A stretch of DNA of 64,000 nt from Pirellulimonas nuda (GTDB lineage Bacteria > Planctomycetota > Planctomycetia > Pirellulales > Lacipirellulaceae), in NCBI RefSeq assembly GCF_007750855.1, contig NZ_CP036291.1:6236905-6300904 (forward strand), given 5' to 3'. The first letter of the stretch is position 1. The number at the start of each line of letters is the position of its first letter. The notes beneath the pieces were generated by a model. The model worked only from the letters and a program-made list of their open reading frames with translations. It made no database searches and was not told the origin of the DNA. Below, piece after piece: positions 10,324 through 61,937 of this stretch. The position numbers were made by a program, and so were the translations under genes.

Positions 10324-11301
10324 ATGCAGACCGATCGTCGCCCCCGGACCCCGCGCCTGTGTTTGTTGCTGCTGACCGCGTGCCTGAGCGGGCCGGCCAT
10401 TGCCGCGGCCCCGCGGATCGAGCCCTCCGACGACGGGCCCCGCGTCACCGTCGACGGCGAGCTGTTCACCCAGTACCGCACCGACCTGGGCAGCAAGCCG
10501 ATCCTCTGGCCGATCCTCGGGCCGACCGGCAAGGAGATGACCCGCGGCTTTCCGATGCGCAAGGCGGCGCCCGGCGAGACAGCGGACCACGTGCACCACA
10601 AGAGCCTGTGGTTCGGGCACCAGCTAATGAACGGCGTCGACTACTGGCTAGAGCCCGCCTCGAAGCAGCAAGGCTCTGACCAGCCGGCGGTGGTGGACGT
10701 CGGCCGGCCGGAGATCGCCAACGAAGACGACGGCGCTGTGCTGCGCAGCAGGCGGCGGTGGCTCGCCCCTGGCGGCGAGACTGTGTGCACCGACGAAACC
10801 ACCTACCGCTTCGGCGCAGACGACGACAGCCGCTGGATCGACTACCAGACCACGATCTCGCCCGTCGGCAAGCCGCTGGTGATCGGCGACACCAAGGAGG
10901 GCTTGTTCGCGGTGCGGGTGGCCGACTCCATGCGGCAAGACGCGGGGCTCGGGGGGACCATCGTGAACGACTCGGGCCAACGCGACGCGGATTGCTGGGG
11001 CCAACGCGCCTGTTGGGTGGACTACTCCGGCCCGGTCGACGGCCAACTCGCGGGCATTGCTATCATGAGCCACCCCACGAACGACCGGCCGAGGCCCCGC
11101 TGGCACGTGCGCACGTACGGTTTGTTCGCGGCGAACCCGATCGGCGAGAAAGACTTCCCGCCGATCGAAGGGTACCGTCAGGGGACGGTCACGGCGGCGG
11201 TGGGAGAGCCGCTGACGTTCCGTTACCGGGTGTTACTGCACCGGGGCGGCGCGGCCGAGGCCGACCTCGCCAGCCAATTCGAGGCGTACTGTGCCGAATA
11301 G
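10324..11301 (+). CDS. Exported PmoA-like (DUF6807) family protein
   Basis: The ATG at 10324 follows a purine-rich aggaagaagaacg and starts a signal peptide (TPRLCLLLLTACLSGPAIAA). The 325-residue product has the family hallmarks TDHVHH-like (TADHVHHKSLWFGH) and WPILGPTGKEMTRGFP, with CWVDYSGP and IMSHPTN further on. The family is annotated from the name 'methane oxygenase PmoA' but is unrelated to membrane particulate methane monooxygenase. It is frequent in planctomycetes near carbohydrate catabolism genes. Its biochemical role is not established, and no local partner suggests one. Confidence 0.8.
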   Translation: MQTDRRPRTPRLCLLLLTACLSGPAIAAAPRIEPSDDGPRVTVDGELFTQYRTDLGSKPILWPILGPTGKEMTRGFPMRKAAPGETADHVHHKSLWFGHQLMNGVDYWLEPASKQQGSDQPAVVDVGRPEIANEDDGAVLRSRRRWLAPGGETVCTDETTYRFGADDDSRWIDYQTTISPVGKPLVIGDTKEGLFAVRVADSMRQDAGLGGTIVNDSGQRDADCWGQRACWVDYSGPVDGQLAGIAIMSHPTNDRPRPRWHVRTYGLFAANPIGEKDFPPIEGYRQGTVTAAVGEPLTFRYRVLLHRGGAAEADLASQFEAYCAE

Positions 11302-11540
11302 CGCGCCGCCGCAACGGTTCGTTCAACGTGCGCAGCGCAGCGAAGCTGGGCGCTCCTTTCGGGGCGCGTCGGCCGGTAAGCGCGCGCCGCTCGGCGCCGG
11401 CCGATACCCGATGGGCGTTCCAATCGCACCCCCGGCGTACGAATCGCGAACAGGATTGTGAAGATTTGCGAAGCCCCGCAGTCCCCCCAACCGATCAACT
11501 TGGTGATAGCACCCAGCGGGACGCTACGGAGGCGTCCGCG

Positions 11541-11858
11541 ATGAGACCAGACCCCCAACAAGCAAACGCACTGGAGCAGGTGAGACGGTTGGTGAACCGG
11601 ACGCTGTGCGACCGGGAGAACCTAGAGCCCGACTGCTTCGGGCTCGGCCAGCAGCCCCTCACGCAACAGGGCCGCCTGTGCGGTTACTACTTTTGGCTTG
11701 AAGGACCGAGGAACGTTCGACTCTCCGCTGTTTGGGAGATCGAGGCGGACGCCGTGCTCTGCTACGGAGCAGATGGCGCCCGTTTCGCCAAACTCCCCGT
11801 CGATTCGCACGACCCGGGGCGGGCAAAACCCGCCGCCGAACGCCGTCGTGCGGCTTGA
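11541..11858 (+). CDS. Small unknown protein upstream of csrA
   Basis: The ATG at 11541 is preceded by the Shine-Dalgarno-like acggaggcg, which favours a real gene over the longer frame that runs in from the preceding gene. The product is 105 residues, soluble, with a conserved-looking core (NRTLCDRENLEPDCFGLGQQ, LCGYYFWLEGPR, AVWEIEADAVLCYGADG) and a basic tail. I do not recognise the family. It lies 69 bases upstream of csrA on the same strand, so a link with CsrA regulation is possible but unproven. Confidence 0.6.
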   Translation: MRPDPQQANALEQVRRLVNRTLCDRENLEPDCFGLGQQPLTQQGRLCGYYFWLEGPRNVRLSAVWEIEADAVLCYGADGARFAKLPVDSHDPGRAKPAAERRRAA

Positions 11859-11927
11859 CGTCCGCTGGGGCTACTAGTATACATGTGCATAGCAGTCCCA
11901 AGGCGGCCCCACGGAGGTAGGCGTCCC

Positions 11928-12116
11928 ATGTTGGTTCTCTCACGCAAAGAATCGGAACGGATCCGAGTCGGAGACTCGATCGTTATTACCGTCGTCAAAC
12001 TCGGCGGAGACAAGGTGCGGATCGGCATCGAAGCCCCCAGCGACGTGCTGGTGCTGCGCGACGAGCTCAAGCCGTTTGACCGGCCTCAGCAGATCGCGCT
12101 GGCCCGCCCCGCTTGA
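11928..12116 (+). CDS. csrA: Carbon storage regulator CsrA
   Basis: The ATG at 11928 has a strong ribosome-binding site (cggaggtag). The 62-residue protein matches CsrA over its full length: MLVLSRKESERIRVGD, IVITVVKLGGDKVRIGIEAP and a variable tail. CsrA dimers bind GGA motifs in mRNA leaders and control translation and stability. Its own ribosome-binding site contains a GGA, as expected for autoregulation (inference). A GC hairpin at 12119-12133 just after the stop may terminate transcription. Confidence 0.93.
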   Translation: MLVLSRKESERIRVGDSIVITVVKLGGDKVRIGIEAPSDVLVLRDELKPFDRPQQIALARPA

Positions 12117-56898: not shown

Positions 56899-57240
56899 CG
56901 CTCATCCTGGGGTTTGGAGCCGTCATCGACCCCGCATTATCGGGCGCCGGGTGGCTATTTTCGACAACCAATCGTGGCCGCGGGCCGGGTTCTTGCGTGC
57001 GGCGACGGGGGTCGGATAACGGGGGACGGAAGGGGAACGATGGGGATGAAGGGAAAGGGTGGGCGCCGCGGGTGGCGGGGGCAAAAGCCCCCGCGGCGGG
57101 GGAGTAGTGGTTGCCCCTGCGGGGCTTTCCTAGTGGGTGCGCCGTCGCTGCCCACCTTGGAAGGCGGCTTGGGGCACGCTACGGACATGCCCCCCTTCCG
57201 ATTCAGAACGGTTATACTTGAAACCAAGGAGACTCTAGCC
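56899..57240. other. 342-base gap upstream of the toxin-antitoxin genes
   Basis: It contains the GC hairpin at 57075-57094, then sequence leading to the antitoxin ribosome-binding site (aaggag at about 57227). An open frame runs in from 56914 but has no start signal, so it is not annotated. A promoter for the antitoxin operon should be at 57150-57220 (the words gaacggttatactt resemble one weakly). Confidence 0.45.
57075..57094. repeat. 8-bp GC hairpin upstream of the toxin-antitoxin pair
   Basis: The sequence gcgggggcaaaagcccccgc is a perfect 8-bp stem with an AAAA loop. A near-identical hairpin with the same left flank (gtg) is at 57868-57887, beyond the toxin gene. Confidence 0.7.
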
Positions 57241-57513
57241 GTGCAGATCAGCATTCCAGAGGAATCGGCGGGCCTGTTTCGCGCCAAGGCGGCCGCCGCC
57301 GGATTTGGCGACGACATCGCGTCGTATCTGTCGCTGCTCGTTGCGGGCGACCAGACAACGTCGCGGCCGACGACGGACCAGCGCGCCGACCCAGAAATCG
57401 ACGTGTTGATCGACGAAGGCTTCGCCAGCGGCCCCGCCGATCGCTCGTGGGCAGCCATGATCGCGGACTGCAAGCGCAAAGCGCTGGCCGAATCGACGAG
57501 CCGCCAGCCTTGA
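57241..57513 (+). CDS. Antitoxin, ParD/RHH-like
   Basis: The GTG at 57241 follows the strong ribosome-binding site ccaaggag. The 90-residue product has an N-terminal part with the look of a ribbon-helix-helix or ParD-like protein (QISIPEESAGLFRAKAAAAG, DDIASYLSLLVAG), a Gln/Thr-rich linker, and a C-terminal toxin-binding segment (EIDVLIDEGFASGPADRSWAAM). Its stop codon overlaps the toxin start by four bases (TTGA), as expected for coupled toxin-antitoxin genes. Confidence 0.72.
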   Translation: MQISIPEESAGLFRAKAAAAGFGDDIASYLSLLVAGDQTTSRPTTDQRADPEIDVLIDEGFASGPADRSWAAMIADCKRKALAESTSRQP

Positions 57514-57821
57514 GCGCGTTGCGGGTCCATCATTCGTCGGCCGCGGACCGCGACGTCGGCAACATCGTGCTCACCATCAGCCGCGACAATCCCGCGGCCG
57601 CGCTGCGGGTCGCGGACGCGATCGACGCGACGGTAAGGCTGATTGCAAAATCTCCGGCGCTCGGCGAGGCCTACCCCCACCCGCGTCACGCCGGATTGCG
57701 ACGTTTCCTGGTAAACCAGTTCCCGAACTACGCGGTCTACTACCAGGCTGACCCAAACGAGCTGTTTGTCGTCCGAGTGCTGCACGCAGCACGTGATGTG
57801 GCGTCTGCATTAAGCGGGTAG
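57510..57821 (+). CDS. parE: ParE/RelE-family toxin
   Basis: The TTG at 57510 overlaps the antitoxin stop and gives 103 residues; another TTG at 57519 is close by. The fold is recognisable from VHHSSAADRDVGNIVLTISRDNPAAALRVADAI, then ALGEAYPHPRHAGLRRFLVNQFPNYAVYYQ and VVRVLHAARDV, which are the strands and basic patch of the ParE/RelE superfamily. Members poison DNA gyrase or cleave ribosome-bound mRNA; the subtype is undecided. The HAARD ending is typical of ParE. Confidence 0.83.
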   Translation: MSALRVHHSSAADRDVGNIVLTISRDNPAAALRVADAIDATVRLIAKSPALGEAYPHPRHAGLRRFLVNQFPNYAVYYQADPNELFVVRVLHAARDVASALSG

Positions 57822-57979: not shown

Positions 57980-60448
57980 CTAGCTCCCCAGCTCGATCTC
58001 AATTTCCGTTTCAATCGGGACCTGAATGTCGATCTCTGCGCGAACCGCCTGAACGAGGTCGATCTCACTTGAATCGGTGGAGATGCTCACGATTAGAGAG
58101 TACCTCGTCTCTTGCTCAACGACGTTCGGGTCGCGCCGAAAACGCCACCAGCCCGTCACTGGGTAGACGCAAACTTGGGCGGAGTCGGCAAGCTCAGCCG
58201 CCGTCCCGACCCAGTAGTCAGAGTGGACCGAGCCACGAACGGCAACCCTCTCAGGGCCCAATTCCCACCGCCGGTCGTCAATGACCACCCGGTCGTCCCG
58301 GCGTTTGCGTTCTCGCTCGCCTTCGGACCAGGCGTCACGAGTCAGGCGCTTGAGCATCCCGGTTTGTGTTTCTCCGGGCCTTTTCACTGAGAAACGCAGA
58401 CCGTGCGAGGCGTACTGGTGTTTGGCGACTTCTCCGCGACGGGGTGGATTGGGCTCCACGAAGTACGACAGCGTGACACGCATTCTAACCTCCGTATTCC
58501 CCAAATCCTCAAGAACTTGCCGTGGCAACGGCAGGTCGTGCATGTGCATCTCGTGCGACTTGCCTTCGCTCCCGTCCATCCGGAACGGCTGAATCGTCTC
58601 TTGAACGACCATCGTCGCGTACCCACTAGCCGACCTGCGGGCGCGCGTCATGTTGGGGACTCCCATGCCGTAAACTCTGAGCCGCTCCTTGCGGCGGTCG
58701 CGAGGGAACTCTTGTCTCATGCGCCGGGTCCATTCGGCCGAGTGGATAACCAGGCCTCGGATGGTCTCGGGCCAGTAGTCGGGATACTCGCTCATCAGCT
58801 TCGCCGCCATCCGAGCCCCCTGTGCAGTGGCGGCGGAGGTGTCTCGCACGGTCCCAAGCAGTGCGTCTCCGTCCGGTGATGACCGCGTCGTTAGTAGCTC
58901 CAGGTCTTCACTACTGGTCACACAGCCTTGTTCATTGATCGCGTAGTTCCCTCCCTCGAATACGACGTCCGGTTTGTAGGGCCAAGACGAGTCGATCCAG
59001 CAGTAAGAAGTTCTGCTCGCAGGAGATAAAGCGCCGGGTTGGGCGATGGGCTCGTAGCCGTCCAGTCCCTTCTCCTCAATCCAAGTCAGATTGGTGTAGG
59101 CGCCGACCGTGATGGCGTTCCAGGACTGACCGGGGTCTTCGACGCTGCTGAGGTAGTTCTCATCGGGGTAGTTCTGGCCGACCTCCTCGCGGACGTTCCC
59201 CGCAGCCAGCACGACCAATCGCCGCACGTCGTCTTGGGCTCCCGCGCACGCCTGGTCGATCTGAGCGGACCAGAGCGTAGGCCACCACATGTCGTCCCCT
59301 TCCGCTGTGACTGCCATGCAGAAGGCTCTCGACGTTGCAGGCCTCTGGAGTTCGGCCTTCGCCATCGCGCCGACCGTGATGGGGCCGTAGTCCGGCGGCT
59401 CGTTGCCGCCGCTCGGTGGAAGTACCTTCACCGCTTCCAGGCGATGGCTCAGTCGATATCGTCTGTCGCTGGCCAGTTTCACGGCGAGGTCTCCGTAGAG
59501 CGCGACTCCCGCCATTTCGGTTCCGTGTCCGGCGTCATCGTTCGATCGCCAGGAATTGTCGTAGGCCTGGTTCTCCTTGGCGGCTAGCGCTTGCTCCAGC
59601 AACGGGTGGCCGCGGTTGACGCCCGTGTCGAGCAGACACACACGCGGGGCGTCTTCGGCGGCAAAGCGGACGCGCTCTAGGAAGTCTTGGATGAACTCGC
59701 CCTGACTGCTCGGAGAGAGCTGGGTGAACTCACTGGCGATGAGGTTGGCTCGCCGGAACTCCGCCAGGCGCGCTAGCAAGCCGGGGAAGCTACGCCATTG
59801 CGTCAGAGAAGCGAACGCCAGAACAACGGTCCGGTCGGGGAAGTGAACCGTTCGGTTGCTCACCGCGATGTCTTGCTGCGAAGCGATCCGCCGGAACCAC
59901 ACGGCGGCTTCCTCATCGTCGTTCGATTCGGCCGTCTCTGCCAGCTGTTCGCTGAGCCATACTTCCCACCAGAAGGTCTCGTCCTCTTCCGGCAGCTCTT
60001 CCTGCACCTCGGTCCAGTAGTCGGCGATATCGCCCGCATCAATCGATGTGGTCGCTGACGCAAGCGGCTCGTTCTTAGGATTCCCAGCCCGCGTGTCGTT
60101 GGTCTGGTACTCGCGGAACTTCTTGGCGAAGGCCGCGACTTGAGAATCGGGGACGGCGACTAGGTACCTCCGCTGGTCACCGTGCCGACGCATGTTGACC
60201 ACACGAACGCCGTGCCGTTCGTCCTCTAGCCGCTCCAACGGGATGTCGAAAGCTTCGCTCTCTCCGAAGACAAGGGGCAGAAAGTGGAGCCCTTCGCGTA
60301 GCGGCTCCGACGCGAGCCGACGCGAAGCCTCACGTTCGGCGCGCTCTAGGTCGTCGAGCAGCTTGGCGCCATGTGACTGGCGTTCGGGCCTCGGCGGGCT
60401 CTCGACCTCGCCGCGCGGCGTGCCGGGGTGAGTGTACCGCGCACGCAA
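57980..60448 (-). CDS. Subtilase (S8) of an IetAS-like defence module
   Basis: The 822-residue form begins at TTG 60448, but the frame upstream (IATYRHILISRSP) looks conserved and starts, at 60487, with ATC right after the ATPase stop. The subtilisin triad is complete: Asp274 in CLLDTGVNRG, His308 in GHGTEMAGVALYG, and Ser538 in RDTSAATAQGA, plus the oxyanion Asn418 in LAAGNV. A long N-terminal region without motif and a C-terminal beta-rich part flank the domain. Paired with an AAA+ ATPase it matches the IetS partner of the IetAS anti-phage system. G+C is lower than in the rest of the window, consistent with transfer. Confidence 0.85.
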   Translation of the reverse strand: MRARYTHPGTPRGEVESPPRPERQSHGAKLLDDLERAEREASRRLASEPLREGLHFLPLVFGESEAFDIPLERLEDERHGVRVVNMRRHGDQRRYLVAVPDSQVAAFAKKFREYQTNDTRAGNPKNEPLASATTSIDAGDIADYWTEVQEELPEEDETFWWEVWLSEQLAETAESNDDEEAAVWFRRIASQQDIAVSNRTVHFPDRTVVLAFASLTQWRSFPGLLARLAEFRRANLIASEFTQLSPSSQGEFIQDFLERVRFAAEDAPRVCLLDTGVNRGHPLLEQALAAKENQAYDNSWRSNDDAGHGTEMAGVALYGDLAVKLASDRRYRLSHRLEAVKVLPPSGGNEPPDYGPITVGAMAKAELQRPATSRAFCMAVTAEGDDMWWPTLWSAQIDQACAGAQDDVRRLVVLAAGNVREEVGQNYPDENYLSSVEDPGQSWNAITVGAYTNLTWIEEKGLDGYEPIAQPGALSPASRTSYCWIDSSWPYKPDVVFEGGNYAINEQGCVTSSEDLELLTTRSSPDGDALLGTVRDTSAATAQGARMAAKLMSEYPDYWPETIRGLVIHSAEWTRRMRQEFPRDRRKERLRVYGMGVPNMTRARRSASGYATMVVQETIQPFRMDGSEGKSHEMHMHDLPLPRQVLEDLGNTEVRMRVTLSYFVEPNPPRRGEVAKHQYASHGLRFSVKRPGETQTGMLKRLTRDAWSEGERERKRRDDRVVIDDRRWELGPERVAVRGSVHSDYWVGTAAELADSAQVCVYPVTGWWRFRRDPNVVEQETRYSLIVSISTDSSEIDLVQAVRAEIDIQVPIETEIEIELGS

Positions 60449-60488
60449 AGGCGACCGGCTGATCAGGATGTGACGGTAAGTGGCGATT

Positions 60489-61481
60489 TCAGACTCGCTT
60501 GAGTGAACGCTTTCGCTCCAGCCTCACGGCGATGGCGCCCGACAAGGCTGCGATCTCTATCTCCCGCGTGTTCGCAAGCACCGCTGCTTTAGCGGCCTCG
60601 TCCGCTGCTCGTGCGATTTCAGCATGGCTCAGTCCCGCGGCCTGCTCCCCCATCTCGGCCAGTGCGGTGCTGTCCAAAGAATACGCGGCCAGGCGGTTGG
60701 CGAGGAGCTTCGCTATCTCGTAAGGGCCGGGAAGGTGATAGGTGATGACTTCGTCAAAACGCCGGAAGAGGGCATCGTCGAGCATCGCTTCGAGGTTTGT
60801 GGCGGCCACCACGAGACTGTCGGAGTCGTCCTGTTCAAGGAACTGTAGAAAGGAATTTAGCACGCGGCGGATCTCGCCCACGTCATGCTGCCCGCCACGC
60901 ATGGCGCCGATCGCGTCGAACTCGTCGAACAGGTAGACGCCCCGAGTGTGCTTCATGGCCTCGAACACGGCGAACAGCTTAGCCGCCGTCTCGCCCATGT
61001 ACTTGGTGATAAGCGAGTGGAACTGCACCGTGAAGTGGGGCAGCTTCAACTCGCCCGCCAGCGCCCAGGAGGTCATCGTCTTGCCCACGCCCGGAGGCCC
61101 GACGAGCAACAGCTTTCTCTTGGCTTCCAGGTTGTGTTCGCGGAGCTTGGCTTGTTGGCGATACTCAACCAGCACTTGCCGCAGCTGCGTTTCCTGGGCA
61201 TCGTCAAGCACCATCTCGCTGAGACGCGTCATAGGGTAGGTCGCCGCGAGGAGCGTCGCCAGTTCGCCATGTGGCCGGGCGATCGGCACAGATCCCCCTG
61301 CGCGGGTCGCGTGCTGCTTGTCACGGAATTCGTCGACGAGTCGCTTGAGCTCAGTGGCTAGCTTGCCCTTGCCGGTGCGAGCTTCGTGCGCGGCAATCTG
61401 CAACGCCACCGAGACGAAACGCTCGTTGTCGGACTCGCCGTAGCTCTTGAGCAGGGATTTGAGTTGCTGAGCGGTCGCCAT
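60489..61481 (-). CDS. AAA+ ATPase of an IetAS-like defence module
   Basis: The ATG at 61481 is preferred: gaaggga lies just upstream, and it lies 11 bases after the stop of the small upstream gene. A TTG at 61496 would overlap that stop by four bases. The 330-residue product has Walker A GPPGVGKT (about 130), Walker B in VYLFDEFDAI (about 185), a sensor-1-type region VVAATNLEAMLDDALFRRFDEV with arginine finger, and a lid helix domain (ADEAAKAAVLANTRE). It is a classic AAA+ remodeller similar to IetA. It presumably gates the subtilase; the trigger is not known. Confidence 0.86.
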   Translation of the reverse strand: MATAQQLKSLLKSYGESDNERFVSVALQIAAHEARTGKGKLATELKRLVDEFRDKQHATRAGGSVPIARPHGELATLLAATYPMTRLSEMVLDDAQETQLRQVLVEYRQQAKLREHNLEAKRKLLLVGPPGVGKTMTSWALAGELKLPHFTVQFHSLITKYMGETAAKLFAVFEAMKHTRGVYLFDEFDAIGAMRGGQHDVGEIRRVLNSFLQFLEQDDSDSLVVAATNLEAMLDDALFRRFDEVITYHLPGPYEIAKLLANRLAAYSLDSTALAEMGEQAAGLSHAEIARAADEAAKAAVLANTREIEIAALSGAIAVRLERKRSLKRV

Positions 61482-61492
61482 GCTGATTCCCT

Positions 61493-61774
61493 TCAATCTT
61501 GCTGCAGTTGCTCGGCGAGTCCTTTCGCCGCGTCTTCGACCAGCAACGCCGCTATCTGCATCGGGCTCACCCGACGCTCATCGCTGCTCGCTTCCTCTGC
61601 CACCTGTTCCAGAATCTGGAGTGTCGATTCGCTCATCGGGAGCTTGCGTTGCACCCGCCAACTCGGGTCGGTCGGCCTTCCCGGACGTTCGCCACGACTC
61701 GGCTCGAGCCTTTCGCGGAGACGCTGGCCAAATAGCACGAGGTCCGTTCTGCCGGATTTAAGTGCGGATGGCAT
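61493..61774 (-). CDS. Small protein leading the AAA+/subtilase module
   Basis: The ATG at 61774 gives 93 residues (an ATG at 61816 adds 14). The middle part reads GRPTDPSWRVQRKLPMSEST, then LQILEQVAEEASSDERRVSPMQIAALLVEDAAK, reminiscent of a ribbon-helix-helix repressor or adaptor. It is placed tightly before the ATPase gene, so it is probably co-expressed with it. It could regulate the module or act as a substrate, inhibitor or sensor; none of these is established. The usual two-gene IetAS description does not include it. Confidence 0.62.
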   Translation of the reverse strand: MPSALKSGRTDLVLFGQRLRERLEPSRGERPGRPTDPSWRVQRKLPMSESTLQILEQVAEEASSDERRVSPMQIAALLVEDAAKGLAEQLQQD

Positions 61775-61937
61775 GGCAGCTCGCTTGCGTATCCCCCTCA
61801 GAATAGCCCCCAGCATCTACTATCGGACTTTTTGCCCCGAAAGTAAAGCCTTACGTTGCCTAGGTTTCGCTGAAAGCAGAACCCGCCCGGCCCGACGTTC
61901 CGAAGCGCCAGATCTGCATTACCGGCCGCCTCAAGTC

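Follow-up and report, generated by a model that had tools for sequence, protein, structure and literature searches.

An IetAS-type locus headed by a small gene

The genome of the planctomycete Pirellulimonas nuda contains an AAA+ ATPase/subtilase gene pair of the IetAS type that is headed by a small third gene, which we call the leader. The locus was analysed within a window of 64,000 nucleotides (contig NZ_CP036291.1, positions 6,236,905 to 6,300,904), by which we mean the whole of that stretch of DNA; comparison loci and genomes carry our own L and G numbers. Three open reading frames (ORFs) occupy positions 61774-57980 of the minus strand in an operon-like array:

61493..61774, minus strand: leader gene, 93 amino acids, a predicted ribbon-helix-helix (RHH)-like autorepressor with a GRPTDPSW N-terminal region, an RKLPM stretch and helices 49-62 and 71-92
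60489..61481, minus strand: IetA-like AAA+ ATPase, 330 amino acids, a predicted antitoxin/regulatory ATPase (PADLOC, PF00004, conserved motifs)
57980..60487, minus strand: IetS-like subtilase, 835 amino acids from an ATC codon (822 from TTG 60448), a predicted toxin protease (PF00082, PADLOC, catalytic triad)

The leader and ietA are separated by 11 nt, and ietA and ietS are adjacent on the same strand. Both large proteins score far above the Pfam cut-offs, IetA as AAA (PF00004, 93.5 bits) and IetS as Peptidase_S8 (PF00082, 180.1 bits). The PADLOC model for IetA (PDLC02196) matches with 222.4 bits across IetA residues 2-321, and that for IetS (PDLC02198) with 107.5 bits, along with five further IetS models, the best single stretch covering part of the model only. 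Because the matches to the NCBIfam IteA and IteS equivalogs fall under their cut-offs (188.1 against 510 bits and 43.6 against 900 bits), the window pair is, judged by its sequence, a distant IetAS member. Profile comparison makes it a homologue of IetAS and SgiAT, AAA/subtilase toxin-antitoxin pairs in which IetA is the antitoxin and IetS the toxin.

The residues expected of active enzymes are strongly conserved. Across 46 IetA rows, Walker A GPPGxGKT (128-135), DEFDA (186-190), sensor N229 and R240/R241 of IetA each reach at least 97% identity, and so do D287, H321 and S551 of IetS (numbered from the ATC) across 43 IetS rows, of which several are partial and one (L081) is empty. An earlier sequence-only reading of this DNA had described three packed minus-strand genes with intact catalytic residues, its Ser538 being our S551, and had called the pair IetAS-like; both descriptions are borne out by these motifs and profiles.

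A predicted operator accompanies the leader

Upstream of the leader lies a palindrome set between two promoter-like boxes:

61842..61847, minus strand: -35-like box TTTACT; relatives have TTCACT or TTTACT, and L081 has TGTACT
61827..61844, minus strand: predicted operator palindrome ACTTTCGGGGCAAAAAGT, agreeing with the consensus at 14 of 16 letters; it overlaps the -35-like box and takes up the spacer
61819..61824, minus strand: -10-like box GATAGT, spaced 17 nt from the -35-like box; relatives have GATACT or GATATT, and L081 has not retained it

The predicted operator has the consensus ACTTTCGG-NN-CCGAAAGT (18 bp, 16 fixed letters) and begins 48-72 nt before the leader start codon. The letters shared among loci read ACTTTCGG-NNNN-(G/A)AAAGT, mostly followed by CCGATA, in upstream DNA that can otherwise hardly be aligned, and ACTTTCGG and AAAGT are invariant across seven aligned leader operons. 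Carriers of the palindrome are the six intact IetAS leaders, the decayed leader locus L040, in which both operator half-sites remain, and a further leader locus (L079) linked to an AlbA_2 protein.

The predicted operator accompanies the leader at IetA loci and did not turn up at IetA loci that lack a leader. Of the 45 IetA loci fetched in addition to the window, the six with an intact or decayed leader score 14-16 of 16 for the palindrome, 38 others score at most 12, and one is not assessable; the window itself scores 14. None of 200 shuffles reached this separation. One locus (L150) offers 325 nt of upstream DNA, enough for a leader and perhaps not for an operator, and one additional IetA locus (L159) has neither a leader nor an operator-like site. 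Entry L042, which is the same locus as L038, was dropped from both the leader and the operator counts.

The leader marks one lineage of IetAS

A search of 397 genomes of the class found at least 33 IetA places (E up to 1e-60) in 31 genomes, and the locus around each was obtained. Five of them have an intact leader (the window, G514, G698, G715 and G194) and one has a decayed leader; at 26 the search saw none, and one could not be judged, namely the second IetA of G497 (L158), which ends at a contig edge. The numbers of leaders and of IetA places are minimum values, since scoring was limited to 13 first-look candidates per genome, and to five in the IetA search. The decayed case, G321 (L040, the same locus as L102), combines stops and a frame break in the leader with open ietA and ietS genes. 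Among the 45 fetched loci the leader is intact at five, decayed at one, absent from 38 and not assessable at one, and leaderless pairs thus predominate (38 of 44 assessable loci). With the window, the intact leaders ahead of IetAS are those of L038, L039, L078, L080 and L081, the second of which (L039) was reached through the leader search only and stands outside the five of 33. Thus we rule out that the leader is a general IetAS component. The sequence-only reading had made the leader part of the system; this stands for a subset of relatives, in which it is an operon member, and fails as a general statement given the counts above, its decay in G321 and the occurrence of its relatives before other genes.

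Within that subset the leader is far from random. The order leader-ietA-ietS is kept in six loci from at least three families, and on an IetA tree (built without rows L055 and L158) all leader loci fall inside one clade of ten rows with support 100/97, made up of six intact leaders, one decayed leader and three loci without a leader. None of 500 shuffles clustered the leader label as tightly. At least two changes of leader state are needed on this tree, so that one gain followed by losses, or two gains, would both account for its history. Purifying selection acts on the leader (L038 versus L039: nonsynonymous divergence dN 0.19, synonymous divergence dS 1.39); nine of 21 leader pairs yielded no dS and the remainder gave dS values of 1.35-3.12. 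This selection, together with conservation across genera, excludes a chance ORF.

The leader has no name in existing collections: PHROGs, PADLOC, NCBIfam (E up to 1) and Pfam (E up to 10) returned none, the best PHROG being a transcriptional repressor at a non-significant E of 0.056. Neither a WYL nor a STAS/wHTH domain was detected in it by Pfam (E up to 10) or NCBIfam (E up to 1). There was no match on plasmids in 72,556 records, and none was confirmed in viral contigs.

Some additional features of the neighborhoods were observed. A look for an alternative regulator upstream of leaderless IetAS yielded unsystematic ORFs; by eye, restriction-modification- or nuclease-like ORFs lie just upstream of leaderless ietA in L046, L052, L054, L056 and L138. 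In the closest relative, L081, a phage integrase gene (10700-11935, PF00589) lies downstream of leader-IetAS.

Leader relatives precede other operons

A leader profile (A1) found at least 39 leader-like places with E up to 0.01 in 37 of the 397 genomes; for 18 of these places E was 1.2e-17 or lower. IetA and IetS follow in four of 25 fetched leader regions besides the window and G194 (L078, L080, L081 and the decayed L102). The other 21 contain no IetA or IetS in the fetched locus by tblastn, several contigs being short. An intact leader precedes an SLFN/AlbA_2 protein in L079, and leader remnants precede relatives of that protein in L084 and L100 (the latter by eye); in L084 the AlbA_2 protein is followed by a UvrD/M78/PD-(D/E)XK protein. 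This SLFN/AlbA_2-HATPase operon looks like a defence operon. In L086 (6077-9688) the genes behind a leader relative, in an operon that is likewise defence-like, encode an N6 DNA methylase and an HNH protein. The leader match in L101 is chance-like. Genome G705 carries both a leaderless IetAS of the leader clade (L132) and, separately, the leader remnant before the AlbA_2 operon (L084).

Ten of 11 long-form leader relatives have a looser palindrome, [AG]CTTT-N8-AAAG[TC], in the 650 nt upstream of them, and the remaining 122,179 nt of these 11 loci have none; there are two copies in L083, and L085 has a near miss. Long-form relatives took no part in building the consensus, and the looser pattern was written after sites had been seen at L082, L086, L088 and L091. 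Six sites (L083, L087, L089, L090, L092 and L093) emerged only when the search was widened beyond a partner gene. The palindrome precedes this partner gene, and hence a two-gene unit, in L087, L088, L089, L090, L092 and L093. A site that tracks a protein family through unrelated operons in this manner behaves as would be expected of that protein's binding site.

The partner is a small conserved gene (LLVLFIPS...GGATAFPQGRG...EPVVIQCYT) found ahead of long-form relatives in L087 (5860-6282), L088, L089, L090, L092, L093, L095, L096 and L097. In six loci the pair is preceded by ACTTT-N8-AAAGT. For the L087 copy neither Pfam nor PADLOC gave a match; it does match PHROG 3543, of unknown function (E 8.5e-7). 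This gene and the long-form relative possibly form an undescribed two-gene regulatory or toxin-antitoxin unit.

Because leader relatives precede other genes, and because the leader is absent from most IetAS and decayed in G321, its distribution points to a portable control gene and not to a third working subunit.

Predicted fold of the leader

An AlphaFold2 model from 21 sequences, which replaced a first model from three sequences (predicted local distance difference test, pLDDT, 60), has a mean pLDDT of 73.6. Confidence is about 90 over helices 49-62 and 71-92, which follow RKLPM, while the N-terminal 40 residues are uncertain. The protein TTHA0139 ranks first among PDB sequences by sequence profile (the sole match, E 0.42) and first by Foldseek (E 0.25, probability 0.95), and hhalign pairs the leader with the TTHA0139 stretch at a probability of 45%. 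Going by its sequence, TTHA0139 would be an RHH protein; Pfam gave no name to the 47-residue stretch. From these matches, weak as they are, we favour an RHH-like fold for the leader and regard it as likely.

The start codon of ietS

Homology places the start of IetS at a codon that is not a standard initiator:

60485..60487, minus strand: ATC in place of the Met codon that homology predicts for IetS, common to G514 (L081)

This codon begins one nucleotide past the IetA stop and 13 codons upstream of TTG 60448, where the sequence-only reading had begun the protein; that assignment has to be revised, as IetS probably starts at ATC 60487-60485. IetS was matched in 42 fetched loci, and 40 of these have an in-frame ATG near the expected start, the exceptions being L149, in which the aligned part of IetS begins late, and L081, the start of which was read separately from the triad alignment. 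The window and L081, the closest relative (IetA 83%, IetS 75% identical), represent two genera of one family, share ATC at the homologous codon and contain no in-frame ATG, GTG or TTG upstream of it. A sequencing error is unlikely because ATC is found in two separately sequenced genomes. Just downstream of the ATC the two loci differ by two ATT/ATC exchanges, and because both are synonymous they suggest that the codons just after the ATC are translated, over what is a short stretch. It is possible that the ATC represents a conserved AUC start codon of a toxin gene. Other possible starts are a GTG (G514) or CTG (window) seven codons further on, or the TTG in the window. A plus-one frameshift that would fuse IetA to IetS was considered because IetS has no ATG, GTG or TTG upstream; the junctions GTC TGA and GGC TAA do not look slippery, and we rate this prediction as less likely than an AUC start.

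A model for control of the operon

On this evidence the locus is likely to be an IetAS-type module that is carried on the chromosome and equipped with a dedicated repressor. The best reading of the leader is that of a predicted RHH-like autorepressor of the IetAS operon. The sequence-only reading had offered regulator, sensor or cleavage target as roles; the operator evidence singles out the first, and sensor, adaptor and cleavage-target roles have no supporting evidence.

In the model that we propose, a leader dimer with an RHH-like arrangement (an RKLPM strand and two helices) would bind the predicted operator between the -35 and -10 boxes. Bound leader would repress leader, ietA and ietS jointly and so keep a dangerous protease low. 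Derepression, for which phage infection or DNA damage would by analogy be the trigger, would let IetA and IetS rise. IetA, an AAA+ protein that acts as antitoxin in studied relatives, would restrain the subtilase toxin IetS until infection or loss of the element upsets their balance, whereupon freed IetS might cleave host or phage proteins and kill or halt the cell. The working parallel would be a three-gene toxin-antitoxin operon with repressor, antitoxin and toxin on separate proteins. An AAA+/subtilase pair was reportedly found to be anti-phage in a 2020 screen, and by analogy toxin-antitoxin and anti-phage roles may both fit this one mechanism.

A number of observations weigh against this model. 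The leader has been lost in close relatives and is thus dispensable. Its monomer model contains no beta-strand, it matches no Pfam RHH family itself (RHH_5 appears at E 0.039 in one of 14 family members), and in VIA-align the Z scores of 3.9 for TTHA0139 and of 2.7, over leader residues 43-93, for the DNA complex of FitA, which we take to be an RHH antitoxin, bracket unrelated chains at 3.6 and 2.9, so that the fold matches are weak. With one mismatch allowed, the palindrome pattern has one site in its own genome, at this locus, which taken alone is weak because the reversed pattern gave three. An extended 20-letter pattern has four matches in 367 genomes, each at a leader locus (and none in viral contigs); because it was derived from those same four loci it bears on specificity alone, and the window, G514 and G565 do not match it. 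A generic promoter scan of the leader upstream region came back without a sigma-70-like site, and in L081 the palindrome is present with neither promoter box well kept. Lastly, the palindrome is absent upstream of five short-loop members of the family (L094-L098), a subgroup that is five residues shorter in the three that were aligned.

Other explanations of the leader were weighed against the same evidence. It might act at the protein level, as a sensor, adaptor or IetS cleavage target, with operator binding secondary or absent. Its fixed position beside a protease in the leader clade, the strong conservation of the low-confidence GRPTDPSW N-terminal half, which could bind a partner, and the M78 metallopeptidase domain encoded behind the leader remnant of L084, in its AlbA_2 operon, would suit such a role. 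We nonetheless hold it to be improbable, as 21 of 25 leader regions have no IetAS in the fetched locus (the relative in L086 standing before a methylase and an HNH protein), 26 of the 33 IetA places show no leader, and the predicted operator co-occurs with the leader.

Alternatively, the leader might be an activator, or might bind the promoter jointly with IetA or IetS as co-repressor, in the conditional cooperativity known from relBE. RelB is an RHH repressor for which the toxin RelE is a co-repressor (PMC2812701), and SgiAT, placed under its own putative promoter, produced no post-segregational killing, from which its authors infer a need for activation (PMC5006074). The predicted site, on the other hand, fills the -35/-10 spacer, the usual position for a repressor, and sites of the same type accompany family members that have no IetA or IetS in the locus, so that we see little likelihood in either variant.

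We find it doubtful that the locus is an ordinary two-gene IetAS maintaining a mobile element, with the small gene as a passenger: the rule of leaderless pairs, the decay in G321 and the integrase gene of the nearest relative would agree with this, whereas the shared gene order in six loci that span three or more families, the purifying selection on the leader, the clustering on the IetA tree and the common promoter site would not.

The repressor model can be extended, although we give the extension small odds. The leader would belong to a planctomycete autorepressor family that uses one operator code (ACTTT-N8-AAAGT) as an interchangeable switch of unrelated defence operons; at IetAS the repressor would be removed by IetA/IetS or by infection, so that a protease toxin would control its own expression, and an AUC start would further lower the toxin dose.

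Genomic surroundings

The sequence-only reading had also pointed to signs of an accessory island. The lower G+C is confirmed, at 0.623 in the operon versus 0.676 in the window. The adjacent plus-strand gene pair (57166-57821), which had been called a toxin-antitoxin pair, holds up on its toxin side (ParE_toxin, E 2.3e-13, Pfam), and the presumed antitoxin (57166-57513) matched no Pfam family. The P. nuda genome, a single 6.62-Mb contig, contains seven S8 matches.

Significance and relation to known systems

IetAS itself is known. What appears to be new, from the comparisons made here, is a leader with a predicted operator in one planctomycete IetAS lineage, and the three-gene planctomycete form that the sequence-only reading had anticipated is upheld to that extent. 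A literature search, the coverage of which left out most subscription papers, retrieved no report of a leader gene of IetAS. How suicidal defence modules are silenced is an open question, and the authors who described SgiAT state that its regulation and inducers are still to be identified (PMC5006074). The present locus supplies a repressor candidate and an exact predicted 18-bp operator, and natural controls are at hand in relatives that have lost the leader and in one in which it is decayed with the operator kept; therefore, regulation of this IetAS lineage is directly testable. If the family holds, it would be a small RHH-like addition to the regulator families common to unrelated immune operons. 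To our knowledge, such regulators have been little studied in planctomycetes.

Among characterized relatives, SgiA of SGI1 acts as an antitoxin and SgiT as a toxin in E. coli, with 50% and 36% identity to Agrobacterium IetA and IetS, respectively (PMC5006074), and a mycoplasma AAA-ATPase/subtilisin pair (TA132-133) is likewise antitoxin and toxin (PMC8562856). The sequence-only reading had presented the pair as phage defence; antiphage experiments with IetAS do exist (PMC13427033), and the toxin-antitoxin role (PMC5006074, PMC8562856) was what it left unmentioned. As in IetAS of Agrobacterium pTiC58, SgiAT and TA132-133, to which it is homologous by PADLOC profiles, the window pair consists of an AAA+ gene followed directly by an S8 subtilase gene. 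Unlike these, which are described as two-gene systems in the text available, it has a predicted leader repressor and operator, lies under the NCBIfam equivalog cut-offs and has ATC as codon 1 of IetS.

The repressor, antitoxin and toxin of omega-epsilon-zeta systems are likewise three genes of one operon, with a separate RHH repressor, and their antitoxin and toxin families are unrelated to IetA and IetS. With regard to regulation, by analogy the nearest functional parallels would be RptR and CapS/CapK, neither of which is shown to be related to the leader in the material available. RptR is a small repressor encoded by the first ORF of restriction-modification defence islands, and also before other modules, whose own-promoter palindromes overlap the -10 box (PMC12255303). 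The leader resembles it as a small protein encoded first in a defence-type operon with relatives before other modules, and is set apart, going by the published description, by a predicted 18-bp palindrome and an RHH-like fold where RptR is all-helical and recognizes TAGCTA repeats. CapS is a STAS-wHTH protein with a kinase partner, CapK, and palindromic promoter sites before diverse immune operons (PMC13373217); CapW/BrxR, which are WYL proteins, and CapH with CapP also precede immune operons (PMC9122588, PMC9122601, PMC9122589). The leader shares with all of these the spread of one regulator family over unrelated immune-type operons, and differs from CapS and CapW/BrxR in having 93 residues and no recognised ligand domain.

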